This document shows positions 33,301 through 47,338 of a stretch of DNA of 49,227 bases, piece by piece; position 1 is the stretch's first letter, and each line of letters starts with the position of its first letter. Origin of the DNA: Pseudomonadota bacterium (lineage in GTDB: Bacteria; Pseudomonadota; Gammaproteobacteria; Acidiferrobacterales; Acidiferrobacteraceae). The stretch lies in the NCBI GenBank assembly GCA_021794275.1, contig JAJYRD010000088.1:1-49227 (forward strand). The letters run 5' to 3'. The notes under the pieces are model-generated. The model searched no databases and had not been told where the DNA came from. It was given only the letters and a program-made list of their open reading frames with translations. The translations under genes and the position numbers were made by a program.

Positions 33301-34191
33301 CTAGGCGGTCGCGGGTAGGTCGGCAGCCGGACAGAGGAAAGGGGTTTCAGGCAGACCCGACACGATCGGCAGCGCATCGTCGCGCGACCACTCGTTCCAG
33401 GAACCGAAATACACCCTCACATTCAGGATACCCGCCTCATGGAGCGCCACCAAGGCATTGGAGGCCCGCGCACCCTTGAAGCAATAGACCACGACTTCGG
33501 AATCGGGGGTTATCCCGACCTCGGCACAGGCGGCGCGAATCGCGGCGGCCGGACGGAACAAGGCCACCGTTCCCTCGCGCTCCTCCATCAGCCGATACCA
33601 CTCGATCCATACAGCCCCCGGCAGACGCCCTTTCCGCGGACAATAATCGACGCCGTAGGGCGATGAGCTCACACCCTCCCATTCGTCGCGGTCACGCACG
33701 TCCAGGATGACCGTCCCTGGCTGCGAGAGTGCCGTCAACACGTCTTCCTTCGTGGCCATGAAGGCATCGAAGGCCGGCCTCAGAGGAAAAACCCGTGGTT
33801 CAGGTGTGGGGATGTCCATCGTGACCGGCAGGCCGGCCTTGAGCCATGCCCGATAGCCGCCATGCAGGACGTGGACGCTTTCGTAACCGAGCGAACGGAG
33901 CAGAAAGTAGCCCCGACATGATTGGCCATAGCCCGTATTCATCGCGTCCTCGTAGATCACCGCCGTTTGTGCCCCCGAAAGACCCGCGGCCCCAAAGAGA
34001 CCCGCGAACGTAGTCGCGAGATCGGCGAGACCGCCAGGGTCGGAGGTGGCGAGGTAGGTGAAGATGTCGCGCATATTCACGGCCCCCGGGATATGGCCTG
34101 CCCCGTAGGTGGCCGGGTCGCGGGTGTCGATGACCACTCTGGGTCCGGACAGTGAGGCGAGATCATGAGGGCTTAAGAGTATCTGGGTCAT
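33301..34191 (-). CDS. Two-domain rhodanese sulfurtransferase
   Basis: A 296-aa protein from ATG 34191, which has a near-ideal ribosome site (AAGGAGGTGTT). The two rhodanese domains are ARVVIDTRDPATYGAGHIPGA-type at the N-terminus and ILDVRDRDEWEGV at the C-terminus. The active-site loop with Cys237 is VVYCFKGARAS. The N-terminal domain is the usual inactive one. Such enzymes move sulfane sulfur from thiosulfate or 3-mercaptopyruvate to cyanide or thiols. It is the last gene of the sigma-54 cyanate operon, 17 bp after cynS, and could connect cyanide/thiocyanate with cyanate metabolism. It has no visible signal peptide. Confidence 0.9.
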   Translation of the reverse strand: MTQILLSPHDLASLSGPRVVIDTRDPATYGAGHIPGAVNMRDIFTYLATSDPGGLADLATTFAGLFGAAGLSGAQTAVIYEDAMNTGYGQSCRGYFLLRSLGYESVHVLHGGYRAWLKAGLPVTMDIPTPEPRVFPLRPAFDAFMATKEDVLTALSQPGTVILDVRDRDEWEGVSSSPYGVDYCPRKGRLPGAVWIEWYRLMEEREGTVALFRPAAAIRAACAEVGITPDSEVVVYCFKGARASNALVALHEAGILNVRVYFGSWNEWSRDDALPIVSGLPETPFLCPAADLPATA

Positions 34192-34208
34192 AACACCTCC
34201 TTGTGTGC

Positions 34209-34652
34209 CTACCAGACGCGGTAGGGCAAGAACTTCCCGTTCATCGTGATCTTTATGCGATCCCCCTTGGGGTCGGCCACACGCTCGATGTCCATCTCGA
34301 AGTCGATCGCGCTCATGATGCCGTCGCCGCACTTTTCGTGGATCAAGGCCTTCAAGGTAGTTCCGTAGACCTGCAGGATCTCGTAGAAGCGATACAGGAG
34401 CGGGTCCACCGGCACTGTGGGATCGAGTGAGCCCTTGCTCGGGCACTCCCGCAGGAGCGCCTGGGCCTCGCCATCGAGGTCGAGCAGGCGCGAGGCGGTG
34501 GCGGCCTCCGCCTCACCCATGCCCATCTGGCCAAGCAGTGCCGCCGTAGTCCACACCTCGCTGCGTCCCATCGTCTCCGCCAGGGCCTTGAAACTCAGCC
34601 CCTTACGACGTTTCGCCTCTATAATGCGGTCGGTCACTTCCTGTCTTGTCAT
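34209..34652 (-). CDS. cynS: Cyanate hydratase (cyanase)
   Basis: A 147-aa enzyme that converts cyanate plus bicarbonate to ammonia and CO2. The start ATG 34652 has AAGGAGG six bases upstream. The N-terminal helical (lambda-repressor-like) domain is followed by the catalytic domain with all three active-site residues: Arg88, Glu91 (LLYRFYEILQVYG) and Ser114 (GIMSAIDF), equivalent to E. coli 96, 99 and 122. It would form a decamer. The start lies 50 bp inside the ABC ATPase gene, giving tight coupling of uptake and breakdown. Confidence 0.97.
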   Translation of the reverse strand: MTRQEVTDRIIEAKRRKGLSFKALAETMGRSEVWTTAALLGQMGMGEAEAATASRLLDLDGEAQALLRECPSKGSLDPTVPVDPLLYRFYEILQVYGTTLKALIHEKCGDGIMSAIDFEMDIERVADPKGDRIKITMNGKFLPYRVW

Positions 34653-35514
34653 GGTTTGCCTCCTTGTTTGTCGTGTCGGCACTGAAGGGGACGACACGGC
34701 CGGCCGCTTCGGGCATAGGCGCGGGTTCGCGTCCCTCGGTAGCGCCCAGAATGGCGTCGAGCAGACGATGGCGGAGGGCCGCATAACCGACCTGGCGATG
34801 CAAGCTTGCCGCCCGTCGTGTCCGCGCAAGCCCCACCGGGATCGCCTCGACGACCGAGCCGGCGGGCGCCGAATGCATCAAAAAAATCGTGTCTGCAAGC
34901 AAAATGGCCTCGTCGACATCGTGGGTTATGAGCAGGACCGTCTGCTTGAACGTTGCGCACAGGTCGAGCAGCTCGTCTTGCAGTCCCGCGCGTGTGCGCG
35001 GATCCAAGGCCCCGAAAGGTTCGTCTAATAGGAGTATCTTCGGTTCTATGGCAAGCGCCCGCGCCACGCCAACCCGTTGGCGCATGCCCCCGGACAACTG
35101 TGCCGGGCGCGCGTCGAGGACCGACAAGAGACCGACGAGACCCAGGTATTTCAAAGAATGGATGTGCACCCGGGCCCGGTCCCAGTCGGGCCAGCGCGAT
35201 TTCACGGCGAACCGTACGTTGTCCAGCACGCTGAGCCATGGAAACAGGGCGTGGTCCTGGAAGACGACTCCGCGGTCGAGGCCGGGCCCACGGACCTCGC
35301 GTTCATCCACCAGCACCACGCCGGCATCGGGCGGCTCGAGGCCCGCCACGATCTTTAGGAGCGTGGACTTTCCACAGCCCGACGGCCCAAGGACACAGGC
35401 AATCTGGCCGCGCGCCACCGAGAGATCGACGCCGACCAGCACCGGCGGGGACTGGCTTTTTTGCGACCGATAGGCCTTGCGCACGCCCTCGACCCTCAAA
35501 AATGCGTCGCGCAT
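34603..35514 (-). CDS. cynD: ABC transporter ATPase, nitrate/cyanate/taurine type
   Basis: A 303-aa nucleotide-binding subunit. Walker A is GPSGCGKST, the Q-loop VVFQDHALFPWLSVLDNV, the signature LSGGMRQRVGVARALA, Walker B KILLLDEPFGALD and the H-loop LLITHDVDEAILLAD. It is about 30 residues longer than usual (family about 265-280). The polar tail runs into the cynS coding region, overlapping it by 50 bases in another frame. It pairs with the permease gene 2 bp upstream. The substrate is assigned by operon context (cyanase), and nitrate or sulfonate cannot be excluded from this subunit. Confidence 0.88.
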   Translation of the reverse strand: MRDAFLRVEGVRKAYRSQKSQSPPVLVGVDLSVARGQIACVLGPSGCGKSTLLKIVAGLEPPDAGVVLVDEREVRGPGLDRGVVFQDHALFPWLSVLDNVRFAVKSRWPDWDRARVHIHSLKYLGLVGLLSVLDARPAQLSGGMRQRVGVARALAIEPKILLLDEPFGALDPRTRAGLQDELLDLCATFKQTVLLITHDVDEAILLADTIFLMHSAPAGSVVEAIPVGLARTRRAASLHRQVGYAALRHRLLDAILGATEGREPAPMPEAAGRVVPFSADTTNKEANHDKTGSDRPHYRGETS

Positions 35515-35516
35515 TC

Positions 35517-36347
35517 TCAGGCCTCGTACGAAACACGCCTAGCGAGGCGTGCAAACAGCGCGTCGAGACCCATGCCGACCACGCCTATGAGAAAAATCGC
35601 CACGAGTACCCGACTGAGGGAGAGATCGTTCCAGGAATTCCACACGAAGGCCCCAATCCCGCGTCCGCCCACCAACATCTCGGCAGCGACGATCACAAGC
35701 CAGGCGATACCCATGGATACGCGCATGCCATTCACAATGGCCGGCGCGCATGCTGGAAGGATGACCGACAGGGCAAGCCGCACACGGCCCGTCTCGAGGG
35801 TATGGGCGACGCGGAGCCAGGCGGGCGGCACGATCGACACACCGTGGCTCGTACTAAGCAGCATGGGCCACAAAGCGCAGACGAATATCACGAACACCGA
35901 GGACGCGTTGGCGCCCTTTATGGTGTAGAGCGCAAGCGGCATCCAGGCGAGCGGAGAAATGGGGCGCAAGATCTGGATAAACGGCCCCAAGGCCTGCCGC
36001 CACATGGGCGACAAGCCGATCACAAACCCCAAAGGCAGCGCGACGAGTGCGGCGAGCAGGAAGCCCGCGAGCACGCGGAGCAGTGAAAAACCGAGCTGGA
36101 GCAAGATTCCGGATCGGTTCGGCCCGCGAGCCAGGAAAGGATGGGCAAAGAGCTGCCGCGCGCTATCCCAGACCTGCAGAGGCCCGGGAAAGGCGGAACC
36201 TCCGGTCCGAGGGGCCAAAAGCGAGGCATAGGAGCCTGGCCCGACCGGATGCTGCGCGGGTATCGTCGCGACGTACCAGACAAACAAGAGGATGGTGGTC
36301 AGAGCGAGGCTCACAGCCGCCGACCGTGTCCAGCGAGGCGATGTCAT
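35517..36347 (-). CDS. ABC transporter permease, NrtB/CynB type
   Basis: A 276-aa inner-membrane permease. It has one N-terminal helix (about 10-28), a periplasmic loop, then the binding-protein-dependent transport core with five or six helices. The EAA-like cytoplasmic loop is AHTLETGRVRLALSVILPAC and the conserved NGMRVSMGIAWLVIVAAEML lies near the C-terminus, as in nitrate/sulfonate/taurine permeases. Its ATG overlaps the upstream substrate-binding gene by four bases. It forms the transporter with the neighbouring ATPase and binding protein. Confidence 0.88.
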   Translation of the reverse strand: MTSPRWTRSAAVSLALTTILLFVWYVATIPAQHPVGPGSYASLLAPRTGGSAFPGPLQVWDSARQLFAHPFLARGPNRSGILLQLGFSLLRVLAGFLLAALVALPLGFVIGLSPMWRQALGPFIQILRPISPLAWMPLALYTIKGANASSVFVIFVCALWPMLLSTSHGVSIVPPAWLRVAHTLETGRVRLALSVILPACAPAIVNGMRVSMGIAWLVIVAAEMLVGGRGIGAFVWNSWNDLSLSRVLVAIFLIGVVGMGLDALFARLARRVSYEA

Positions 36348-37690
36348 ACGCCCCCCTTGCCCGCAAACGAGGCCAGGTAGGGGCGCGGCTCGGCAGGGTT
36401 GAAGACCTGGCCCATGATCCGGAAATCAGGCGTCTGTAGGCCGGGAGAGGGATAACCCTGCTCGCGCAGGAGTTTGCGTGCGTCCACCGCCAGATAGACC
36501 TGCCGGGCGATGTCCTGGTAGCGCAGATGGCGATGGACATAACCCCAGCGCTTCAACTGGCTCAGGATCCACACGGCCATTGCTGGATAAGGGTAGGGAG
36601 CGAAGTCGATGCGATCTGGCACGTTACGGACATTTCCGAGGCCGTCGGCGAACCGACCCGTCAACACCTGGCTCACGACCGTGGCAGGCTGATTCAAATA
36701 GCGCGGCGCGGCGAGCGTCGCCACCATTCCCGGGCGGTTCGCGGCCGGGTGCGCGGACTCGGCGGCCGCGATCAAGGCCCGAGCGACGGCGGCAAAGGTG
36801 GCGGGCGCCTCCTTGACGAGACGCGCGGTGACCGACAGGGAGCAACAGGGATGGCCGTCCCAAATATCGAGGGAAAGCGTGTGAATATAGGCGAAGCCGT
36901 CGTATACGGCGCGCTGATTGAAGGGTTCCGGGCCCAGGAAGCCGTCGATATTGCCGGCGCGCAGGTTGGCGACCATGTCAGGCGGCGGCATGACGCGCAA
37001 AGCCACATCGCGCGACGGGTCGAGCCCATAGTGCGCGATGTAGTACCGCAACAGGAGATTGTGGATCGAATAATCAAACGGGATGCCAAACCGCATACCC
37101 TTCCAGGTACGGGGGTCGCGGCGGTTTTTGTGGCGCTGGTGCAGGGTTATCGCCTGACCGTTTATGTTTTGCAGCACGGCGCAGTCCACGCCGACCTTCG
37201 CCGATCCAACGCCCATGGACATGGTGAGCGGCATAGGCGCGAGCAGATGCGCGACGTGAAGTCTGCCGGTCGCCAGACGATCGCGAACGACCGCCCAGCT
37301 GGTGGCCTTTTCCAGGGTGACGACGAGACCCTCGCGTGCGAAGCCGCCCTGCGCATGGGCCATGATGAGTGGCGCGGCGCACATGATGGGCAGATAGGCG
37401 ACCTGCAACCGCTTATGCTCGGGCGCGGTCCGGTCGTGGAGCATGGCCTCGGCGGCACGATACGGAAAGAGGGTCGCGACCGCCGCCAGCAGGCCCTGGG
37501 CCCCGAGACCCTTCAGCAAGGCGCGCCGCAGCGGGCTCTGCGGATAGAGCGCCCTGAGGACCGCCTCGGCCATGGGGCCCGCGCCCGTCTCCGGCGCATG
37601 CGCACCAAGATGACGCTCGTCGCGCGCCCCGCAGTCGCACGGCTTCGCGGTATCGGGCTCGGGACAGGACAGGCTTTCGTCGCTCGTCAT
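36344..37690 (-). CDS. ABC substrate-binding protein, NrtA/CmpA/CynA family
   Basis: A 448-aa protein. The hydrophilic N-terminal 40 residues carry a CDCGARDERH segment, also seen ahead of the signal in NrtA-like proteins of thiobacilli. A twin-arginine-like signal follows (RRALLKGLGAQGLL). The mature protein shows AYLPIMCAAPLIMAHAQGGF, FGIPFDYSIHNLLLRYYI and GFLGPEPFNQRAVYDGF, the fold of nitrate/bicarbonate/cyanate binding proteins. First gene of the minus-strand operon, 40 bp from a sigma-54 promoter. SD is weak. The ligand is inferred to be cyanate from cynS. Confidence 0.87.
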   Translation of the reverse strand: MTSDESLSCPEPDTAKPCDCGARDERHLGAHAPETGAGPMAEAVLRALYPQSPLRRALLKGLGAQGLLAAVATLFPYRAAEAMLHDRTAPEHKRLQVAYLPIMCAAPLIMAHAQGGFAREGLVVTLEKATSWAVVRDRLATGRLHVAHLLAPMPLTMSMGVGSAKVGVDCAVLQNINGQAITLHQRHKNRRDPRTWKGMRFGIPFDYSIHNLLLRYYIAHYGLDPSRDVALRVMPPPDMVANLRAGNIDGFLGPEPFNQRAVYDGFAYIHTLSLDIWDGHPCCSLSVTARLVKEAPATFAAVARALIAAAESAHPAANRPGMVATLAAPRYLNQPATVVSQVLTGRFADGLGNVRNVPDRIDFAPYPYPAMAVWILSQLKRWGYVHRHLRYQDIARQVYLAVDARKLLREQGYPSPGLQTPDFRIMGQVFNPAEPRPYLASFAGKGGV

Positions 37691-37729
37691 CGGGTGCTCG
37701 CTTGGGCTGTGGCTGTGACTACCCCAAGG

Positions 37730-37745
37730 AGCAAGTCCTGTGCCA
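37730..37745 (-). promoter_or_regulatory. Sigma-54 promoter of the cyanate operon
   Basis: The minus strand reads TGGCAC-AGGAC-TTGCT, a perfect -24/-12 element with GG and GC ten bases apart, 40 bp before the binding-protein start. The adjacent regulator has the GAFTGA loop that contacts sigma-54, so the site and protein support each other. Confidence 0.88.
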
Positions 37746-37806
37746 TCAAACCGTCAGGTTCTGATGCAGCGCCACCGGCACGAGAGGCCGACTTGATGCC
37801 GGGGAT

Positions 37807-37855
37807 GTCGACACATTGTCGACTCTTTGCACGCATGTGCATGGTTTGTGCATGG
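37807..37855. promoter_or_regulatory. Upstream activator sites of the sigma-54 regulator
   Basis: Read toward the cyanate promoter (minus strand), the first element is the palindrome GTCGAC-AATGT-GTCGAC (37823-37807). Its first 12 bases match the GTTGACAATGTG site at 39461. Next to it are the imperfect palindrome TGCAC-GCAT-GTGCA and two TGTGCATGG copies one helical turn apart (37836-37844 and 37847-37855). The palindrome centre is about 84 bp from the -12, a normal enhancer distance. The sites also overlap the presumed promoter of the regulator gene itself. Confidence 0.65.
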
Positions 37856-37887
37856 CCGCAGGAGAAGCGACCGGACGGAGGGAAGAC

Positions 37888-39465
37888 ATGGAAGAACGCA
37901 CGGACGGCAAAGAGCGCGAGGATCTGCGCGAACAGGAGACACTGTTTTTGCGCGAAACGGCCCGGATGCTCGGGCGCGGACTCGAGCCACGGGTGGTCCT
38001 CTACGAGATACTCCATCTCCTGTCCGAACTCGTGGGACTGAACCGGGGACGCATCGTCTTGCGGGAAGATGACGGACGCGGCCTCATCCGTCATGCCTAC
38101 GGACTGAGCCGCGACGAGGTCGCGCGCGGCGTCTATAGGGAGGGTGAGGGTATCACCGGGAAGGTTCTAGGGGGCGGACAGGCCATTATAGTCCAGGATA
38201 TCAACCGCGACCCGGACTACCTGCAGCGGGCCATACCGCGCGCGCGTCTGCCAGCGGGCACCGTTTCCTACATCGCGGTGCCGCTCACCCTGGAAGGCCG
38301 GATCATAGGCGTCCTCGGGGTGCACAGGCTGCGCGGACGGGCACGCCCCCTGGCAGCCGACCTGCAAATTCTGAATACCGCGACCGCGTTCATCGCCCAA
38401 ATCATCCACTTGAATCGGCTCGTATCCGCGCGCACAGAGCGCCTGGAGTCGGAGAATCGTGAATTGCGATCAGCCCTGACTGACGGCGCGGCCTCGCACA
38501 ATGTCCACGGGATCATAGGAAACTCCAAGGCGCTACGGGCGGCGCTCGCTAAAACCGAGCGCGTGGCGCGGTCGGGCGCCTCCGTTCTCGTGCTCGGAGA
38601 ATCCGGGACCGGGAAAGAGCTCTTCGCCCGGGCCCTGCACTTCATGAGTGAGCGCCGCGAGGGGCCATTCGTCCGGGTGAATTGCGGCGCGATACCGGAG
38701 ACTCTGTTCGAATCGGAACTCTTCGGTCACGAGCGCGGCGCCTTCACCGGGGCGCACGCCGCCTCTGTGGGGCGTTTCGAGCAGGCCCACGGAGGCACGC
38801 TCTTCCTGGACGAGGTCGCCGACATCCCGCTGGCCTTACAGGTCAAGCTTCTACGCGCCCTGCAAGAGCACATCATAGAAAGACTCGGGGGGCGGCGCGC
38901 CATCGCGGTGGACGTGCGCATCGTGGCGGCGACGAACGAGGATCTGCAGGAAGCAGTCCGGGCTGGGCGATTCCGCCTGGATCTCTTCTATCGCTTAAAC
39001 GTGGTCCCGATCCGGTTGCCAGCACTGCGCGAGCGTGTGGACGATATCCCGCAGCTGGTGGATTTCCATCTGCAGGAGCTGGGCCGAACCTACGGACGCG
39101 ACATACGTATTACGCCCCCGGCGCTACAAAGACTCTCACGCTACGGTTGGCCTGGCAACATCCGACAGCTTCGCAACGTCGTCGAACGGCTCGTGTTGCT
39201 AGCGGACACAAACGTCATAGAGGCAACTGAGGTCGAGCAGGCGCTGGCCGCCGAGCTCGCACCGGCGACGGGCGAGACCGCGCCGGCCGGGCTCGTGCGC
39301 GCCTACGAGCGCATAGACCAGCGGGACGCCGAACGTATACGCGATGCGCTGAAGAACGCGCGCGGCAACAAATCCCAGGCCGCGCGCTTGCTCGGGCTGA
39401 CTTTGCGGCAACTCACCTATCGACTGAAGCGACTACGACTCGAACCCGTGCCGCCATATTGTTGA
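37888..39465 (+). CDS. Sigma-54-dependent activator with GAF sensor (NifA-like)
   Basis: A 525-aa enhancer-binding protein from ATG 37888 (GGAGG seven bases upstream). A GAF domain (about 15-175) would sense a small ligand. The AAA+ domain has Walker A GESGTGKE (237-244), the sigma-54 contact loop GAFTGA (284-289), Walker B GTLFLDEV and [14 protein letters not shown] with the arginine finger. A Fis-type helix-turn-helix closes the protein ([20 protein letters not shown]). It lacks the NifA cysteine linker, so redox control of the NifA kind is not suggested. It lies between two sigma-54 promoters that share its putative binding motif and is the likely activator of both operons. Confidence 0.93.
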
Positions 39466-39478
39466 CAATGTGCACAAC
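39461..39478 (+). promoter_or_regulatory. Activator site upstream of the osmC-like gene
   Basis: GTTGACAATGTG followed by CACAAC overlaps the stop codon of the regulator. The first 12 bases match the site in front of the cyanate operon in the same orientation relative to the promoter (one C/T difference). It lies about 72 bp before the -12 element. Confidence 0.6.
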
Positions 39479-39527
39479 GCGGCAGCCCATCGGACGCAAG
39501 GCGCTGCTTTCCGCGAGGTTCCTCGCA

Positions 39528-39543
39528 TGGCACGGGAATTGCC
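39528..39543 (+). promoter_or_regulatory. Sigma-54 promoter of the osmC-like/flavoprotein operon
   Basis: TGGCAC-GGGAA-TTGCC has the invariant GG-N10-GC. Only the last base differs from the consensus. It lies about 50 bp before ATG 39592. Confidence 0.8.
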
Positions 39544-39591
39544 CGTGGAGTGCATTGCGAATACTCGCGCAACGATAGAAAGGAGTCGCTC

Positions 39592-40137
39592 ATGCCCGAA
39601 ACCCTGGCAGCCACACCCGATACCGTCGTGCTGTCCCCCGTGGACGGCGAGGCCCTGGCCGCCCTGGCGGCGCGCGGCAAGGCGAGGCCGGACGCGATGG
39701 TCACCCTCAAGGCGCGTACGGTGTGCGAGGGCAAGTTCCGCAACCTCACCTACATTCGAACGCTCGCGCCGCATGTAATCGACGAACCGCCTCACCTGCT
39801 GGGCGACGATACCGCCCCTAACCCGTCGGAGGCGCTCCTGGCCGCGCTCGGGTCGTGCCTCTCCGTGGGCGTACAGGCCAACGCTGTGGCGCGCGGCATA
39901 ACGCTGCGCCGGCTCGAAGTACAACTCGAGGGGGACATCAACGTAACGGCCGTGTGGGGCGTCGGCGATCTTTCACCCAAACCGCTCGGTTTCACCGCGG
40001 TGCGCGTCACCTTCGTGCTGGAGGCCGACGTCCCGCGCGAGGCGCTCGAAGACTTGGTCGCCCACGCCGACGCTTGGTCGCCGGTCGCCAACACCCTGCG
40101 CAACCCGGTGTCCGTCGCCGTTGCGCTCGCGAAATAA
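39592..40137 (+). CDS. OsmC-family protein
   Basis: A 181-aa protein from ATG 39592 (AAAGGAG six bases upstream). OsmC/Ohr-fold features are the helix NPSEALLAALGSCLSVGVQA with the conserved cysteine, a second cysteine in ARTVCEGKF, and a C-terminal AHADAWSPVANTLRNPVSV. Ohr/OsmC members reduce organic hydroperoxides through a Cys pair, but several OsmC-like proteins coupled to other pathways have different roles. Transcription from a sigma-54 promoter and linkage to an acyl-CoA-dehydrogenase-like enzyme suggest a specialised rather than general stress role. Confidence 0.87.
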   Translation: MPETLAATPDTVVLSPVDGEALAALAARGKARPDAMVTLKARTVCEGKFRNLTYIRTLAPHVIDEPPHLLGDDTAPNPSEALLAALGSCLSVGVQANAVARGITLRRLEVQLEGDINVTAVWGVGDLSPKPLGFTAVRVTFVLEADVPREALEDLVAHADAWSPVANTLRNPVSVAVALAK

Positions 40138-40146
40138 GGGGGTCCG

Positions 40147-41307
40147 ATGGCAGAAGCCCAAAACCATGCCTCGCCCGCGGATCCCGTGCCGAATGCGCGC
40201 CTTGAGGAAGCGGCGGCACGATTGCGACGCCTGGTCGCAGAAGTACTCTCCGGCTTGACTCGAAAGATCGACGAAGACGGCCACTATCCGGAAAATTTCT
40301 TGCGCGCATACGGGCGTGACTACGGCTTCGGGCACGCAGTGGACCCGGGCTACGGCGGTCAGCCGGGAGGGCTCGTAGGGGTCATCACGGGCATGGAGGC
40401 CTGCTCTGAAGAGTGTGTCTCCACGGGCTTTCTCGTGTGGTGCCAGACATCATGCGCCTGGTACCTGCAAAAGAGCGGCAATGCCGCCCTCAAACGAAGC
40501 CTGCTCCCCGCAATCTGCTCCGGGGAGCAACTGGCGGGCACTGGCCTCTCCAACCTCTTAAAGGCTCGATCACAGATCGAACCGCTACGGCTTCGCGCCA
40601 CCCAAGCCCCGGGCGGCTACCGCCTGCTGGGCACCTTGCCATGGATATCAAACCTGGCGCCGGGCGCGGTCTTTGCCGTAGGCGCCGCGACTAATGACGG
40701 AACGCTCCTGGCGCTTGCGCGCGTCGGCGCGCCGGGTCTCGCGCTGACGCGCGCGGGGCCATTCTGCGGCCTCGACGGAACATCCACAATGAGTTGCCGC
40801 TTCGACAATGTCTTCGTGGGTCGCGGCGACATCATCGCAGACGAGGCGGAATTCGACAGTTTTTTCGCGCGCATGCGGGCTGGGCTGATCCTCGCTCAGA
40901 TGGGGATGGCGCTCGGTCTGACCCAGGGCGCTCTTACCCTCATAGAGGAGGCCCGGTCGCTGGCGCGCCCGACCGACACCTTCGTGCAGCACCAGCCGGA
41001 CGGCCTGCGAGAGCGCTTGCGCGTGGCACGCGCCGACACGCTGACCGCGGCGCAAGCGCTGGATGTCGGCGCACCACCACCCTTCACCGAAATCCTCGCG
41101 ATCCGCGCGCGCGGGGCCGTGTTGGCCCTCGACTCCGCCCAGGGCGCCTTGCTGCACTGCGGGGCTCGCGGTTATCTCGAGCGCCATCCCGCCCAGCGAC
41201 GCCTGCGCGAGGCGTACTTCATAGCCATCGTCACTCCCGCCCTGAAGCACTTGTGCCGCGACCTCGCGCGCGACGCGGGCGCTCGCGATGCCACTCCGGC
41301 CGTCTAG
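40147..41307 (+). CDS. Acyl-CoA dehydrogenase-family flavoprotein
   Basis: A 386-aa protein nine bases after the osmC-like stop. It has the acyl-CoA dehydrogenase layout: helical N-terminal domain (FLRAYGRDYGFGHAVDPGYG), beta-domain with GYRLLGTLPWISNL and a C-terminal four-helix domain (RAGLILAQMGMALGLTQGAL). Relatives include FMN/FAD-dependent monooxygenases of the DszC/SfnC kind used for organosulfur or C-N compounds as well as true dehydrogenases. I cannot see a clear catalytic glutamate, which leaves the reaction open. Nothing nearby supports beta-oxidation, so a role in the sigma-54 regulon is the better guess. Confidence 0.75.
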   Translation: MAEAQNHASPADPVPNARLEEAAARLRRLVAEVLSGLTRKIDEDGHYPENFLRAYGRDYGFGHAVDPGYGGQPGGLVGVITGMEACSEECVSTGFLVWCQTSCAWYLQKSGNAALKRSLLPAICSGEQLAGTGLSNLLKARSQIEPLRLRATQAPGGYRLLGTLPWISNLAPGAVFAVGAATNDGTLLALARVGAPGLALTRAGPFCGLDGTSTMSCRFDNVFVGRGDIIADEAEFDSFFARMRAGLILAQMGMALGLTQGALTLIEEARSLARPTDTFVQHQPDGLRERLRVARADTLTAAQALDVGAPPPFTEILAIRARGAVLALDSAQGALLHCGARGYLERHPAQRRLREAYFIAIVTPALKHLCRDLARDAGARDATPAV

Positions 41308-41668: not shown

Positions 41669-42070
41669 ATGCGCTCACTTGGACATCAGATTGTGGCCGA
41701 GTTTTATGGATGCGACAAAGCGCTTTTGAACGACGTTGCATACATTCGGAACCACATGCTGGAGGCCGCCGTGAAATCCGGCGCCACTATCGTCACTGAG
41801 ACATTTCATCACTTTTCCCCGCACGGGGTCTCGGGTGCGGTCATCATCGCGGAGAGCCACCTGGCGATCCACACGTGGCCCGAGTACGGCTATGCCGCCG
41901 TCGACCTCTTCACCTGCGGTGATTCCGTTTCAGCGGAAACCGGCTTCAATCACTTGCGCGAGGCGCTGGTTGCGGGTCACGTATCAACCATGGAAGTCCA
42001 TCGCGGGCAGATCGACATGATGTCGATGGCCGAAGAGCAACGACCGGCCAAGAAGCTCGCGACGGGCTGA
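41669..42070 (+). CDS. speD: S-adenosylmethionine decarboxylase proenzyme (SpeD class 1b)
   Basis: A 133-aa pyruvoyl enzyme providing decarboxylated SAM for aminopropyl transfer. ATG 41669 is preferred over an in-frame TTG at 41654 because the SD lies between them. The cleavage and active-site residues are at the positions known from Thermotoga SpeD: Ser63 in [12 protein letters not shown] (self-cleaves to pyruvoyl), His68 and Cys83 (DLFTCGD). It is the first gene of the polyamine operon, with pdaD 24 bp downstream. Confidence 0.96.
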
Positions 42071-42094
42071 TCCGCTTCGCATTCAGGATTTGCC

Positions 42095-42571
42095 ATGATC
42101 ATAAAGACGCCTACGTCCCACACATTCGTGACGGGCTCGAGTGAGGGCTATACGCCCTTGAACGCCTTCGACGGTGCCTTGCTGGCCGCCGGCATCGGCA
42201 ACACGAACCTGGTCAAGATGTCCTCCATCGTGCCACCTGGGACCCGCGAGGTGCCGGTCACGGAGCTCGTGCTCCCGCCAGGCGCGCTCGTTCCCGTAGC
42301 CTACGCCGCGATGGAGTCCGATATACCGGGATCCATGATCTGCGCTGCGGTGGCCGCGGCGTGGCCGACCGACCCTTCCAAGCCTGGGCTTATCATGGAA
42401 TACCATGCCCACGGTCACCGCGAGGACGCGGAATCGGTCGTGCGGCGGATGGCAGAGGAAGGCATGCGTAAGCGCGGGTGGGAGGTGAAGACCTTGAAGT
42501 CGGTCGCCATCGACCATCGCGTCGACAAAATCGGCGCAGCCTTTGCCGCCGTGGTGCTGTGGGATCTGTAG
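42095..42571 (+). CDS. pdaD: Pyruvoyl-dependent arginine decarboxylase
   Basis: A 158-aa enzyme that decarboxylates arginine to agmatine. The self-cleavage site is Ser43/Ser44 in [14 protein letters not shown], with the substrate-binding GNTNL segment before it and the conserved [11 protein letters not shown] and GWEVK near the C-terminus. This is the archaeal/chlamydial type of enzyme, distinct from PLP-dependent SpeA. The next gene, speE, starts three bases after the stop, so both are co-translated. No agmatinase or agmatine deiminase gene lies in the window. Confidence 0.94.
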
Positions 42572-42574
42572 AGG

Positions 42575-43423
42575 ATGCGCAAGGACGGCTGGTACACGGA
42601 GGAATGGGCGGACCAGGGGTCGGCAATTTCGTTGCGCGTCAAAGAGAAGGTGCATGACGAGCAATCACCCTACCAGCGCATAGAGATCTACGAGACCGAG
42701 ACCTTCGGCACGCTCATGACGTTGGACGGTCTCGTGATGGTCACTGATCGCGACAACTTCGTGTACCACGAGATGATGTCGCATCCCGCGCTCTTCACGC
42801 ACCAATCGCCACGCCGGGTCCTCATCATCGGCGGCGGTGACTGCGGGACCCTGCGCGAGGTCCTGAAGCACGACGAGGTGGAGCATGTGGACCAGGTGGA
42901 GCTGGACGAGCGCGTGACACGCGTGGCGGAGCAGTTCTTCCCGGAGCTTTGCGCGGCGAACGACGACCCGCGGGCCCACCTGCACTTCCAGGACGGCATA
43001 CGGTGGGTCGCGGAAGCGCAACCGGGCTCATATGACGTCATCATCGTGGACTCGACGGACCCGGTCGGTCCCGCCGCGGGCCTGTTCGGAAAGGCGTTCT
43101 ACACGGACTGCCATCGAGCGCTCAAGGCGGACGGCATCGTGGTCGGCCAGAGCGAATCGCCCCTGTTCCACACCACGCTGATCAAAGAGATGCACGAGGC
43201 CTTGCGCGGCGCCAATTTCCTGGACGTGGCCACCATCCATTTTCCGCAGTGCACCTACCCCTCGGGCTGGTGGAGCGCCACCCTTGCCCGCAAAGACGCC
43301 ACCCTCGCCGGCTTCAGGGAGGAGGCGTGTCGCGAGCGGTCGTTCGCGACACGCTATTACAATGCCGGCATTCATCAGGCGGCCTTCGCCTCGCCGGAAT
43401 TTTTATTTAAAACGCTACTCTAA
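42575..43423 (+). CDS. speE: Polyamine aminopropyltransferase (spermidine synthase)
   Basis: A 282-aa enzyme transferring aminopropyl from decarboxylated SAM. It has an N-terminal beta-hairpin domain (SPYQRIEIYETETFG, MTLDGLVMVTDRDNFVYHEM) and a Rossmann fold with RRVLIIGGGDCGTLREVLKH, in which the usual second Gly-Gly is Cys-Gly, and the catalytic loop VDSTDPVGPA. FHTTLIKEMH and PSGWWSATLARK follow. The start is 3 bp after pdaD. Acceptor specificity (putrescine versus agmatine) cannot be read from the sequence, and the operon context makes agmatine possible. Confidence 0.95.
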   Translation: MRKDGWYTEEWADQGSAISLRVKEKVHDEQSPYQRIEIYETETFGTLMTLDGLVMVTDRDNFVYHEMMSHPALFTHQSPRRVLIIGGGDCGTLREVLKHDEVEHVDQVELDERVTRVAEQFFPELCAANDDPRAHLHFQDGIRWVAEAQPGSYDVIIVDSTDPVGPAAGLFGKAFYTDCHRALKADGIVVGQSESPLFHTTLIKEMHEALRGANFLDVATIHFPQCTYPSGWWSATLARKDATLAGFREEACRERSFATRYYNAGIHQAAFASPEFLFKTLL

Positions 43424-43600: not shown

Positions 43601-46600
43601 ATGGATTATGAACAGTCATCACAGGGTCCCACCAGCGCGGGAGTGATTGAAGGCGGCCTGCGCGTCATCCGGCGCAACGGGCACGCCACGCGCTTCGATG
43701 CCTCGAAGATCGCGATCGCCATTACCAAGGCATTCCTTGCGGCCGAAGGCACTTCAGGCGCCGCCTCGACGCGCGTGCGCGAGATCGTGACGGGACTCAC
43801 AGACCAGGTCATAGCCGCCCTTACCCGCCGAACCCCGGGTGGCGGCACGGTCCACATCGAGGACATCCAGGACCAAGTCGAACTCGCGCTCATGCGCAAC
43901 GGCCACCACGAGGTGGCGCGGCGCTATGTGCTCTACCGGGAGCAGCGCGCCCAGGCGCGGGCGGCCGAGAAGACCGAAGCCCAGGAACCCGCTATCCATG
44001 TCCGGACCGCGGATGGACGCAACGTGCCGCTCGATCGGGCGCGGCTCAAGGCGGTGATCGACGAGGCCTGCAGCGGCCTGCGGGAGGTCTCGGCGGATGC
44101 GGTGCTTCAGGCGCTCTTGCGCAATCTGTTCGACGGCGTCGACGAGCGTGATGTGATGCAGTCGGCGATCCTGAGCGCTCGCGCGCTCGTGGAGACCGAA
44201 CCGGACTATACGTATGTGACGGCGCGCCTACTCCTTGATGTGCTGCGCCGAGAGGTGCTCGGCCGGTCGCTCACGCACACCGAGATGCGCGCCGAATACC
44301 CGGAATACTTTCGCGCCTTCATACGCGAAGGGGTTGAGGCGGAACTGATCGACCCGCGGCTTGCCGAATTCGACTGTGCCCGCTTGGGCGCGGCACTCAA
44401 GGCCGACCGTGATCTGAACTTCACCTATCTCGGGCTCCAGACCCTGTACGACCGCTACTTTCTGCACCGTGAAGAGCGGCGCATCGAACTGCCGCAGGCA
44501 TTTTGGATGCGCGTGTCCATGGGACTGGCCCTGAATGAGGTGGATCGGGAAACGCGCGCGATCGAGTTCTACGAGATCCTGTCGACCTTCGATTTCGTGT
44601 CCTCGACCCCGACCTTGTTCAATGCGGGGACGCTACGCTCGCAGCTTTCGTCCTGCTATCTCACCACGGTCTCCGACGACCTGGACGGCATTTACAGCGC
44701 CATCAAGGACAACGCGCTTCTTTCCAAGTACGCGGGGGGCCTTGGCAACGACTGGTCGCGCGTAAGGGCCCTCGGCGCACGCATCAAGGGGACGAACGGC
44801 AAGTCACAGGGCGTGATCCCCTTCCTCAAGGTCGCCAACGACACCGCGGTGGCGGTAAACCAAGGCGGACGGCGCAAGGGCGCCGTGTGCGCCTACCTCG
44901 AGACCTGGCACCTGGATATCGAGGAGTTCCTCGAACTGCGCAAGAATACCGGCGACGATCGGCGCCGCACGCACGACATGAACACGGCCAACTGGATACC
45001 GGATCTGTTCATGGAGCGCGTCCGCGCGGGCACCGAATGGACGCTGTTCTCGCCATCGGATACCTCGGACCTGCACGACATCTACGGGGAGGCCTTCCGG
45101 GCCGCCTACGAGCGCCACGAGGATCGTGCCGCGCGTGGCGAACTGAAGCTCTTCAAGAAGGTCCGGGCGCTGGATCTCTGGCGCAAAATGCTCTCGATGC
45201 TGTTCGAGACCGGGCACCCGTGGCTCACCTTCAAGGACCCGTGCAACCTGCGCAGCCCGCAACGCCACAAGGGCGTGGTTCACAGCTCCAATCTTTGCTG
45301 CATGACCGCCGACCAGAGGGTCGTGAGCGACCGTGGACTTCTGACCGTGGGCGAGCTCTATGCCCAGGGTGGCAGGAATCGCGTCGTGGGGCTGGACGGC
45401 GTGTATGACGCCTCGGAGATGTTGCTACCCCGGCCCAACGCCCCCATCGTGCGGATCGAGACCGCTGAGGGCTACCGCCACAAAGTCACACCCGACCATA
45501 AGGTCTGGGTGAAGGATCGTGGCTGGGTCGAGGCACAACACCTGAAGGCCGGAGACCACCTGCTCATCCAGCAGCGTGAGGGGCTGTTCGGGCCTGCCCA
45601 CAACCCCGAGATCGCCTTCGTGATCGGGCTCATGACCGCGAGCAGCGCCTATGGCCGGCACAGCATGGTAACGGAGCTCGAGGCCGAGCGCTTCGCCTAC
45701 ATCGGAAAGGCGCGCATGGCCGCGATTTCTCACGAGGCCTCTGAGACCTCCGAGACCGCCGAACCCTGGCAAGAGGGTCACGACGAGCGCGACCACGCCC
45801 ATGTGGGTATCCCGGAGCTCATCTGGACGGGCGACAAGGAGACAGTGACCGCCTATCTGCGGGGCCTCTATCAGGCGGGCCACGGCATGATCAAGAGTCT
45901 CACGCTGGCGTCCTACGACCAGCCGTTCATCGAGGGCCTGCAGATCGTGTGGGCCAACCTCGGGATCGAGACCCATATCCACAAGATCGAGAAGAGCTAC
46001 TGGCGGCATCCGCTGTTCCGCCTGATCATGACCAGCGCCGAGGGGCATGCCTTGGCTGCGGCCGTGCTCCAGGTCAGCGAGGAGGCCTTCCCGTTGAGCC
46101 AGGGCGAGGCGGCCTTCTTGAGCGACAAGCAGCGCGGCTACGCCACGTTTACCGGGCTTACGCCGCTCCCCAACGAGGATGCCTATTGCTTGATGGTGGA
46201 TTCGGCCACCCACGCGTGGACCGTGAACGGCTTGATCACGAAGAACACTGAGATCACGCTCAACACCTCGGACGAGGAGATCGCGGTCTGTAATCTCGGC
46301 TCTGTGAACCTCGCGGCCCATGTTGGCAACGAGGGCGGCATGGACATGGCGAAGCTCGAGCGCACGGTGCGTACCGCGATGCGCATGCTCGACAACGTCA
46401 TCGACATCAATTACTACTCGGTGCCTCAAGCGCGGGTCTCGAATCTGCGCCACCGTCCGGTAGGTTTGGGTGTCATGGGCTTCCAGGACGCCCTGTACAA
46501 ACTGCGCCTGCCGTACGCGTCCGAAGGCGCCGTGACGTTCGCCGACCGCTCCATGGAGGCCGTGAGCTACTACGCGATCCTCGCCTCCACGGAATTGGCG

Positions 46601-47338
46601 CGCGAGCGCGGATCCTACGCGAGTTATGAGGGCTCGCTCTGGAGCCAAGGGGTTCTGCCCATAGACAGCATCGCCTTCGTCGAGGAGGCGCGCGGCGGGT
46701 CTTTGACCATGGATCGCGGCGCCCATCTGGACTGGGCACCGATCCGCAAGGCGGTGGCGAGCTACGGCATGCGCAACTCGAACTGCCTGGCCATAGCCCC
46801 GACCGCCACCATATCGAATATCGCGGGCGTTGCGCAAAGCATAGAACCGACCTACCAGAACCTGTTCGTGAAATCGAACCTTTCGGGTGAGTTCACGGTC
46901 CTGAACGAGCACCTCGTCCACGACCTGAAGGAACGTGGCTTGTGGGACCCGGTCATGGTCAACGACCTCAAGTATTACAACGGACGCGTGGGTGGTATAG
47001 AACGCCTGCCGGGCGATCTCAAGGCGCTCTACGCGACCGCCTTCGAGATCGAGCCGCGCTGGCTCATAGAGGCCGCCTCGCGCCGCCAGAAATGGATCGA
47101 TCAGGCGCAGAGCCTGAACCTCTATATGGCGGAACCCTCGGGGCGCAAGCTGTCCGATATGTATATGTTAGCGTGGGAGAAGGGACTGAAGACCACCTAC
47201 TACCTGCGCACGCTGGGCGCGACGTCGGTCGAGAAATCGACACTGAACGACGGGGCACTGAACGCGGTGCGCGGACCGGCGCCTGAAGAGCCCAAGGCCT
47301 GCGCCATCAACGATCCTCAGTGCGAGGCATGCCAGTAG
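43601..47338 (+). CDS. nrdA: Ribonucleotide reductase class Ia large subunit, intein-containing precursor
   Basis: A 1245-aa precursor; removal of the 316-residue intein leaves 929 aa. Two N-terminal ATP-cone domains (first GGLRVIRRNGHATRFDASKI, second IHVRTADGRNVPLDRARLK) regulate activity, as in Pseudomonas NrdA. The catalytic barrel has Cys352 (QLSSCYLTT) and Cys897 (EIAVCNLGSVNL), the redox pair, and the thiyl residue Cys566 in SSNLC, with the matching TEI on the other side of the intein. A C-terminal CAINDPQCEACQ carries the shuttle cysteines. It makes dNDPs with NrdB, whose gene starts 15 bp later. Function requires protein splicing because the intein separates Cys566 from the partner Glu. 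Confidence 0.96.
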   Translation: MDYEQSSQGPTSAGVIEGGLRVIRRNGHATRFDASKIAIAITKAFLAAEGTSGAASTRVREIVTGLTDQVIAALTRRTPGGGTVHIEDIQDQVELALMRNGHHEVARRYVLYREQRAQARAAEKTEAQEPAIHVRTADGRNVPLDRARLKAVIDEACSGLREVSADAVLQALLRNLFDGVDERDVMQSAILSARALVETEPDYTYVTARLLLDVLRREVLGRSLTHTEMRAEYPEYFRAFIREGVEAELIDPRLAEFDCARLGAALKADRDLNFTYLGLQTLYDRYFLHREERRIELPQAFWMRVSMGLALNEVDRETRAIEFYEILSTFDFVSSTPTLFNAGTLRSQLSSCYLTTVSDDLDGIYSAIKDNALLSKYAGGLGNDWSRVRALGARIKGTNGKSQGVIPFLKVANDTAVAVNQGGRRKGAVCAYLETWHLDIEEFLELRKNTGDDRRRTHDMNTANWIPDLFMERVRAGTEWTLFSPSDTSDLHDIYGEAFRAAYERHEDRAARGELKLFKKVRALDLWRKMLSMLFETGHPWLTFKDPCNLRSPQRHKGVVHSSNLCCMTADQRVVSDRGLLTVGELYAQGGRNRVVGLDGVYDASEMLLPRPNAPIVRIETAEGYRHKVTPDHKVWVKDRGWVEAQHLKAGDHLLIQQREGLFGPAHNPEIAFVIGLMTASSAYGRHSMVTELEAERFAYIGKARMAAISHEASETSETAEPWQEGHDERDHAHVGIPELIWTGDKETVTAYLRGLYQAGHGMIKSLTLASYDQPFIEGLQIVWANLGIETHIHKIEKSYWRHPLFRLIMTSAEGHALAAAVLQVSEEAFPLSQGEAAFLSDKQRGYATFTGLTPLPNEDAYCLMVDSATHAWTVNGLITKNTEITLNTSDEEIAVCNLGSVNLAAHVGNEGGMDMAKLERTVRTAMRMLDNVIDINYYSVPQARVSNLRHRPVGLGVMGFQDALYKLRLPYASEGAVTFADRSMEAVSYYAILASTELARERGSYASYEGSLWSQGVLPIDSIAFVEEARGGSLTMDRGAHLDWAPIRKAVASYGMRNSNCLAIAPTATISNIAGVAQSIEPTYQNLFVKSNLSGEFTVLNEHLVHDLKERGLWDPVMVNDLKYYNGRVGGIERLPGDLKALYATAFEIEPRWLIEAASRRQKWIDQAQSLNLYMAEPSGRKLSDMYMLAWEKGLKTTYYLRTLGATSVEKSTLNDGALNAVRGPAPEEPKACAINDPQCEACQ
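45299..46246 (+). other. Intein in NrdA, 316 residues, with decayed homing endonuclease
   Basis: The intein lies exactly between SNLC and TEI of the host. Block A starts CMTADQRVVSD (Cys1). Block B is HKVTPDHKVW with Thr64 and His67. Blocks F and G are YCLMVDSATHAWTVNGLITKN, ending in Asn316, with Thr as the +1 residue. The penultimate residue is Lys instead of the common His, a variation tolerated in some inteins. Between them sit relics of a LAGLIDADG enzyme: IAFVIGLMTASSAYG (about 105-119) and YLRGLYQAGHGMI (about 186-198). Both have lost the catalytic Asp/Glu, so homing should be inactive while splicing can persist. Confidence 0.95.

Follow-up and report, generated by a model that had tools for sequence, protein, structure and literature searches.

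Control of cyanate genes by sigma-54 has been described in Pseudomonas pseudoalcaligenes CECT5344, where cynF and cynABDS are transcribed divergently and cynA has a putative sigma-54 promoter; CynF is a Fis-type sigma-54 regulator, a cynF mutant lacks cyanase activity, and the cluster is flanked by glutamate synthase genes upstream of cynF and, downstream of cynS, by hemE (PMC6627978). According to a 2025 survey, alpha- and gammaproteobacteria show enrichment of cyanate lyase under sigma-54 (PMC12316311). Here we analyze a stretch of 49,227 nucleotides (‘the window’; contig JAJYRD010000088.1) from the draft genome of a member of the Acidiferrobacteraceae. In it, genes for a rhodanese, cyanase, and the ATPase, permease and substrate-binding protein of an ATP-binding cassette (ABC) transporter read leftward (the cyn operon), and genes for a GAF/AAA+/Fis regulator, an OsmC-like protein and an acyl-CoA-dehydrogenase-like flavoprotein read rightward. 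The original prediction for this locus took sigma-54 control of a cyanate operon to be undescribed, which the two publications above contradict; the novelty that is left lies in the class of regulator (GAF-type), in the DNA site that goes with it and in the regulator's connection with the OsmC/flavoprotein module. We consider it very probable that one GAF-type activator, together with RpoN, drives both operons through GACAWTGTC-type sites.

The promoters, the sites, their conservation and the co-location of the genes can be read directly from the DNA. Each operon is preceded by a -24/-12 element (Table 1) that matches TGGCAC-N5-TTGC exactly, as predicted, and these are the sole zero-mismatch matches in the window. 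The usual -12 rule would put the transcription starts at about 37719 on the minus strand and 39554 on the plus strand, some 29 (cyn) and 38 (osm) bases ahead of the start codons. A sigma-70 promoter scan of 37650-37950 found none. The 12-mer by which the original prediction joined the two operons is also present, exact and without another zero-mismatch copy in the window, at 37812-37823 on the minus strand (GTCGACAATGTG) and at 39461-39472 on the plus strand (GTTGACAATGTG). Its placing upstream of the promoters holds, but the proposed spacing of 70-85 bp does not, since the distances from the start of the 12-mer to the -24 element are 78 and 67 bp. The two copies do share an orientation relative to their promoters, but this says little because the unit is palindromic. 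The osm-side site overlaps the stop codon of the regulator (39463-39465). With up to two mismatches, the 12-mer occurs 13 times in the window, against a shuffle mean of 4.89 and a largest shuffle count of 11. The whole draft genome has three exact copies, of which two are the promoter sites; the third lies within a 634-residue open reading frame and was dismissed, and a regex search of the 12 kb around it found no sigma-54 match.

Loci for comparison (L numbers) were those around relatives of the flavoprotein and of the OsmC-like protein, annotated plasmid loci, and cynA loci of one further family. Regions upstream of osmC, the transporters and cynS in regulator-bearing loci were scored for -24/-12 promoters. 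A score of at least 19 of 21.5 was reached by 38 of 51 regions, compared with 3.4% of the shuffled sequences and 4.9% of the segments drawn at random, and at least 18 by 44 of 51 (12.2% and 16.2%); this set includes the window and two congeners, shared divergent regions are counted separately, and the random segments may contain true promoters. At the first transporter gene of six loci with no window-type regulator in view (L104, L106, L084, L086, L082 and L108), the best score was 15-17 in all six, and genome G715, to which L106 belongs, was unmatched by the one RpoN model applied to it. At the Acetobacter locus (L085), where the best scores are 15.5 and 17.5, the regulator's GAFTGA motif reads GAFPTA.

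To enter the site counts, a region needed a best sigma-54 score of 17.5 or more, which 48 of the 58 scored regions had. Among the class-A regions, L078 osmC, L080 osmC, L083 cynS and L087 substrate-binding protein fell below this threshold, and L080 abc2 was too short. The word count left out seven more (six cynS regions that were cut short or shared their intergenic stretch with a neighbor already counted, and L072 abc2), and regions of L085, L088, L105, L107 and L111 were displayed, not counted. The L113 substrate-binding-protein region, whose regulator is of the other class, is in the word count and was removed from the matrix set. L075, L077 and L079 share one genus, so the counts are not independent events. 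Upstream of the sigma-54 promoters, de novo counting over 27 regions (15 loci, window and congeners excluded) found ACATTGTC in 14 of them and ACAATGTC in 13, compared with at most six regions for the commonest 8-mer in 200 shuffles. These words overlap in the 9-letter palindrome GACAWTGTC, which the predicted 12-mer also overlaps and which frequently occurs as abutting copies 9-10 bp apart. In the 21 regulator-bearing loci, exact GACAWTGTC was found 21 times in 6,079 bp upstream of sigma-54 promoters vs. once in the other 366,535 bp.

The strongest single result, independent of the window, comes from a 23-bp matrix built on 46 sites from 25 of 34 regions, none of them from the window or its congeners. 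Over the 49-kb window this external matrix ranked the osm-side site first (39464; 22.6 bits) and the cyn-side site second (37812; 14.9 bits), followed by two positions outside the locus promoters, 29214 (12.7 bits) and 40804 (11.3 bits). The original prediction was to stand or fall with conservation of its motif beside related regulators. A site with at most one mismatch to GACAWTGTC is indeed present upstream of the promoter in 25 of 34 regions of the other loci, with most such hits 64-135 bp ahead of the -24 element, but the exact 12-mer is lost in the two congeners and is therefore not the true unit.

Among 60 genomes searched, own included, full-length orthologues of the regulator were found only in those congeners, G005 (77%) and G009 (76%); the next genome by score gave a 42% match. 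Both congeners preserve the entire cluster, with unchanged neighbors. The osm promoter is identical in both, and the cyn promoter is TGGCATGAGACTTGC, which differs in the spacer and in one base of the -24 half. Both sites fall within strongly conserved intergenic islands, which read GCAAAGAGTCGACAAWGTGTCGA for the cyn operon and ATTGTTGACAATKTGC for the osmC operon. Another conserved island, at 37837-37859 (GCGGCCATGCAYAAASCRTGC on the minus strand), lies between the regulator and the cyn site, close to the regulator start, and may be a promoter for the regulator or a binding site for a different protein.

The OsmC/flavoprotein pair occurs in alpha-, beta- and gammaproteobacteria, and its named carriers are Marinobacter, Methylocystis, Acetobacter, Pseudosulfitobacter and Caballeronia plasmids. 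Flavoprotein relatives were found in 14 of 369 genomes of the class and OsmC relatives in 14 of 398 genomes of the phylum, own included in each case. At the 13 other flavoprotein loci of the class, osmC neighbors the flavoprotein gene in 12 (the other is truncated by a contig end), a window-type regulator is in view in 11, a rubredoxin-reductase fusion in 12, cyanase in eight and rhodanese in three. The 13 OsmC regions of the phylum came from 12 genomes (the 13th genome, G162, was already covered as L078); 12 have the flavoprotein gene next to osmC, with rhodanese in view in eight, cyanase in six, and a window-type regulator in only two. Thus, the pair is tied more widely to cyanase or rhodanese than to the window-type regulator. 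The reductase fusion gave only 27-28% matches in three genomes of the window's own genus and was not accepted there as an orthologue.

A search for cynA found none in the 25 genomes of the first genus searched and, in one family, found cynA in 13 of 248 genomes. Seven of these 13 loci have the pair, and six have the cyn genes with a CynF-type regulator only. In six of the seven (L145, L147-L150 and L152), the regulator, osmC, flavoprotein, reductase and cynABD are co-directional, with a sigma-54 promoter at osmC scoring 18-20.5; L146, the remaining one, stops at a contig end short of the regulator. cynS follows the in-line array in L149, L150 and L152. A second osmC copy with a sigma-54 promoter stands beside cynS in L145 (14682-16644, with a rhodanese as well) and L147 (1371-2428); upstream of it, L145 has two exact GACAWTGTC and L147 none with up to one mismatch.

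The regulator itself has the features of a sigma-54 enhancer-binding protein, namely a Sigma54_activat domain with intact GAFTGA, an HTH_8 domain and a sensor domain, and its predicted target operons carry -24/-12 promoters with a distal site. One might suppose that this is an ordinary CynF-type cyanate operon, and that the OsmC/flavoprotein operon is an unrelated neighbor with a similar promoter by chance. The published divergent arrangement of CynF and cynABDS speaks for this, as do CynF-clade regulators at the cyn operon in L107, L109, L111, L113 and L115, and the six cynA loci that have no pair. We compared the window with L154, which has the published gene order (cyn genes, and by Pfam gltB, gltD, hemE and the regulator) and a gap of 259 bp between mechanical starts, vs. 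268 bp given for the CynF cluster (PMC6627978). By synteny, L154 probably stands for CynF, and its family would be Pseudomonadaceae. Its regulator has PAS-PAS-AAA+ architecture instead of GAF, and the eight CynF-type (PAS) regulators form one clade with 100/100 support. The window-type group lies apart from both this clade and the paralogue in its own genome, although a long-branched outsider, L050, joins it. Because of the different sensor domains and the separate clades, the window activator appears to be of a different class from CynF with a similar job. The candidate sites differ too: GACGAAATATCGT-like repeats are found in the intergenic regions of L154, L156 and, less clearly, L151 (the L144 intergenic region has none), whereas both window operons carry a GACAWTGTC-type site. 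Together with the six loci in which the pair and the cyn transporter are in line, these differences leave the CynF-type explanation improbable.

A regulator scan of genome contigs returned 21 loci with up to 47% identity, mostly over the AAA+ part. Seven of the 21 were placed in the tree, where only L050, on its very long branch, joined the window's group. Two pieces of the L076 regulator were left out of the comparison; that gene (L076:5139-6685) lies in two overlapping frames, from a frameshift or a sequencing error. L113 carries both classes, a CynF-clade regulator beside cynABD and a GAF-type regulator beside osmC, and each is accompanied by the upstream repeat of its class. On a Klebsiella plasmid, a 46% relative of the regulator lies near annotated carbon-nitrogen hydrolase and nitrile hydratase genes, a neighborhood in line with the cyano-compound theme.

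The shared palindrome could instead be the site of another protein, such as a repressor, with the activator binding elsewhere. Palindromes suit many dimeric regulators, and the exact form of the palindrome is missing from L070, whose regulator is 59% identical. Yet the sites keep to their distance upstream of the -24 element, recur with the window-type regulator group, and give way to a different repeat at loci with CynF-type regulators, so that we rate this explanation as very unlikely. Equally remote is a relative of NifA or NorR that answers nitrogen fixation or nitric oxide and meets the cyanate genes as incidental targets: NifA is the top NCBIfam match (465.6 bits) and NorR scores 333 bits, but both fall under their cut-offs (528.85 for TIGR01817 and 476 for NF003451), the genome has another full-length paralogue (presumed NifA-like, a candidate) whose GAF domain is only 27% identical, and a regex search of both intergenic regions found neither the NifA site, TGT-N10-ACA, nor NtrC-type sites.

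Several observations weigh against control of both operons by one GAF-type activator at GACAWTGTC-type sites. The window has a single exact GACAWTGTC, which falls within the flavoprotein gene (40804-40812); the two promoter sites each depart from this word by one mismatch and are distinctive only when their flanks are scored too. Nine of the 34 regions in other loci have no site with up to one mismatch, including both regions of L070, the nearest outgroup, where the osm side has the variant ATTGTGAACAAT and the cyn side has nothing within two mismatches. By the external matrix, the congener sites score 9.9 and 9.2 bits and are outranked by other positions, taking only ranks 3 and 5, and 2 and 4, over 18 kb. 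Genome-wide, GACAWTGTSGAC with one mismatch gave 68 matches vs. 13 for a reversed control; words of this type are common enough that single words cannot call targets. Five loci with no window-type regulator in view (L105, L107, L110, L111 and L116) have sigma-54 scores of at least 20 at osmC, and a site with up to one mismatch was not seen for L105, L107 and L111; thus, other activators can serve the pair. The in-line loci often have a sigma-54-like sequence, without the site, ahead of the substrate-binding gene, so a single transcript over all the genes cannot be claimed. Searches of the window's own draft genome with two domain models found no RpoN. We take this as a probable gap and not as absence, because the draft (89 contigs) is 92.7% complete and RpoN is present in six of six congeners tested (4 of 14 control genomes matched). 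Finally, the substrate and the reaction are read from gene neighborhood only.

Even so, the sequence supports the regulon originally proposed, in which the transporter, cyanase and rhodanese genes on one side and the OsmC-like and flavoprotein genes on the other answer to one activator, and it supports the two sigma-54 promoters and a shared enhancer-like site. As to binding, activation, ligand, substrate and reaction, we infer the following. The activator would bind the palindromic sites of Table 1 and, with RpoN, switch on the leftward cynABD-cynS-rhodanese operon and the rightward osmC-flavoprotein operon. The AAA+ ring is probably kept inactive by the GAF domain until a small signal binds, which may be a cyano compound or a nitrogen-status cue. 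The transporter would import a cyano compound, the OsmC/flavoprotein pair would convert it to cyanate with the rhodanese handling sulfur, and cyanase would split cyanate to ammonia and CO2. The recurrence of the activator, the site and the genes together in other bacteria points to an undescribed pathway ending in cyanate; among the papers listed in our literature searches, which included one comammox Nitrospira genome paper, we recognized no description of the OsmC/flavoprotein/cyanate gene combination. Whether both operons serve one cyanate-yielding pathway is, in our judgment, an even call.

Membership of the cyanase family is clear, as the cynS product scores 188.7 bits against a TIGR00673 cut-off of 113.3. 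OsmC/Ohr peroxidases use two catalytic cysteines. The first is present in 33 of 33 sequences of the OsmC family, window included, but the position before SPV, which we take to be the place of the resolving cysteine, has a cysteine in none of the 33 (three have one further on); because of this, ordinary peroxidase chemistry is doubtful. Acyl-CoA dehydrogenases have a catalytic acid near the C terminus, in a YEGT-type motif. At the C-terminal motif of the flavoprotein family, 25 of 32 sequences have IVTPA and seven have near variants, with no acidic residue in those five places; the test is weak, in that the sole comparator (VDGAD) is annotated and not a studied enzyme. A profile of 15 flavoprotein members, run against the PDB, matched mostly named acyl-CoA dehydrogenases among the best 60 of 80 matches, and caffeyl-CoA reductase, prolyl-ACP dehydrogenase, acyl-CoA oxidase and Rv3094c are among the matches listed. 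A single-sequence AlphaFold2 model of the flavoprotein was unusable (mean pLDDT 36.7). The rhodanese loop CFKGAR is identical in 15 of 15 sequences, window included.

The pair and the rhodanese would suit the conversion of a cyano compound that contains sulfur. In the cyanate pathway of thiocyanate, the first enzyme was initially uncharacterized and the first step is now given as an oxidation; heterotrophs also use thiocyanate as a nitrogen source (PMC5778177). Because of this described pathway and the rhodanese context, thiocyanate is our leading guess from the gene neighborhood, with cyanide and nitriles next. A more specific proposal, which we hold only tentatively, is that the pair, with rhodanese or the rubredoxin-reductase fusion, forms a new aerobic route from thiocyanate or another cyano-sulfur compound to cyanate, as a C-S-cleaving, nitrogen-scavenging step without thiocyanate dehydrogenase, under a new GAF-type activator class that reads GACAWTGTC.

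Table 1. Positions in the window of the promoters, candidate sites and genes of the cluster.
Feature	Position	Strand	Basis
Sigma-54 -24/-12 promoter, cyn-rhodanese operon, TGGCACAGGACTTGC	37731..37745	-	Exact match
Sigma-54 -24/-12 promoter, osmC operon, TGGCACGGGAATTGC	39528..39542	+	Exact match
Candidate enhancer site, cyn operon, GTCGACAATGTGTCGAC	37807..37823	-	Conserved island in congeners; external-matrix rank 2 in window
Candidate enhancer site, osmC operon, ATTGTTGACAATGTGCACAAC	39458..39478	+	Conserved island in congeners; external-matrix rank 1 in window
GAF/AAA+/Fis sigma-54 activator, 525 aa	37888..39465	+	ATG at 37888; GAF, Sigma54_activat, HTH_8
OsmC-like protein, one conserved Cys	39592..40137	+	PF02566
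Acyl-CoA-dehydrogenase-like flavoprotein	40147..41307	+	PF02771 and PF00441; C-terminal IVTPA-type motif
Substrate-binding protein, NrtA/CmpA/CynA-like	36344..37690	-	PF13379; PDB matches NrtA and bicarbonate transporter
ABC transporter permease, NrtB/CynB-like	35517..36347	-	PF00528; top NCBIfam ntrB, under cut-off
ABC transporter ATPase, NrtC/CynD-like	34603..35514	-	PF00005; top NCBIfam ntrCD, under cut-off
Cyanase, cynS	34209..34658	-	TIGR00673; start approximate
Two-domain rhodanese (sulfurtransferase)	33301..34197	-	PF00581 in two stretches, loop CFKGAR; start approximate

A PHROGs search with three proteins gave a sole match, of cyanase to a head-protein model, which we judged irrelevant. 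Beyond the cluster, genes for S-adenosylmethionine decarboxylase and pyruvoyl-dependent arginine decarboxylase and then a putative spermidine synthase gene follow on the plus strand (41669-43423) and adjoin the cluster in both congeners as well. Further on (43601-47338, plus strand), the large chain of ribonucleotide reductase contains an intein-like stretch, with an Intein_splicing match at residues 583-711 (27.7 bits, under the Pfam cut-off of 35.8).

The locus offers a directly testable regulon of one activator, one short DNA element and two operons. It also brings the OsmC/flavoprotein pair into a cyanase-linked neighborhood, and this conserved module is the more interesting part; if the substrate guess is true, it would be relevant to thiocyanate and cyanide turnover in wastewater and soils.

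Among known systems, the cyn operon of E. coli is likewise a cyanase operon but, unlike that of the window, is under LysR-type CynR control and has no ABC transporter. The thiocyanate dehydrogenase cluster of Thioalkalivibrio resembles the window in having a sigma-54 regulator near cyanate-pathway genes of thiocyanate; in contrast, as described, it has a two-component system with a GAF histidine kinase, and thiocyanate dehydrogenase with putative copper-uptake genes instead of the flavoprotein/OsmC pair (PMC5744179). In the nit1C cluster, a sigma-54 Fis-family regulator (NitA) is divergent from cyano-compound genes, but the set is nitrilase-based, and the account consulted does not name cyanase, OsmC or a window-type flavoprotein (PMC11049912). 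Closest is CynF-cynABDS of P. pseudoalcaligenes (oleovorans) CECT5344, where a dedicated sigma-54 activator of Fis type is likewise encoded divergently, cynA has a putative sigma-54 promoter, and an ABC transporter and cyanase are present; the published cluster is given as cynFABDS, without OsmC, flavoprotein or rhodanese (PMC6627978). CynF, judged by the synteny match, also differs in its PAS-PAS-AAA+ architecture, separate clade and different candidate site, and one operon is described for it, whereas the window has two.

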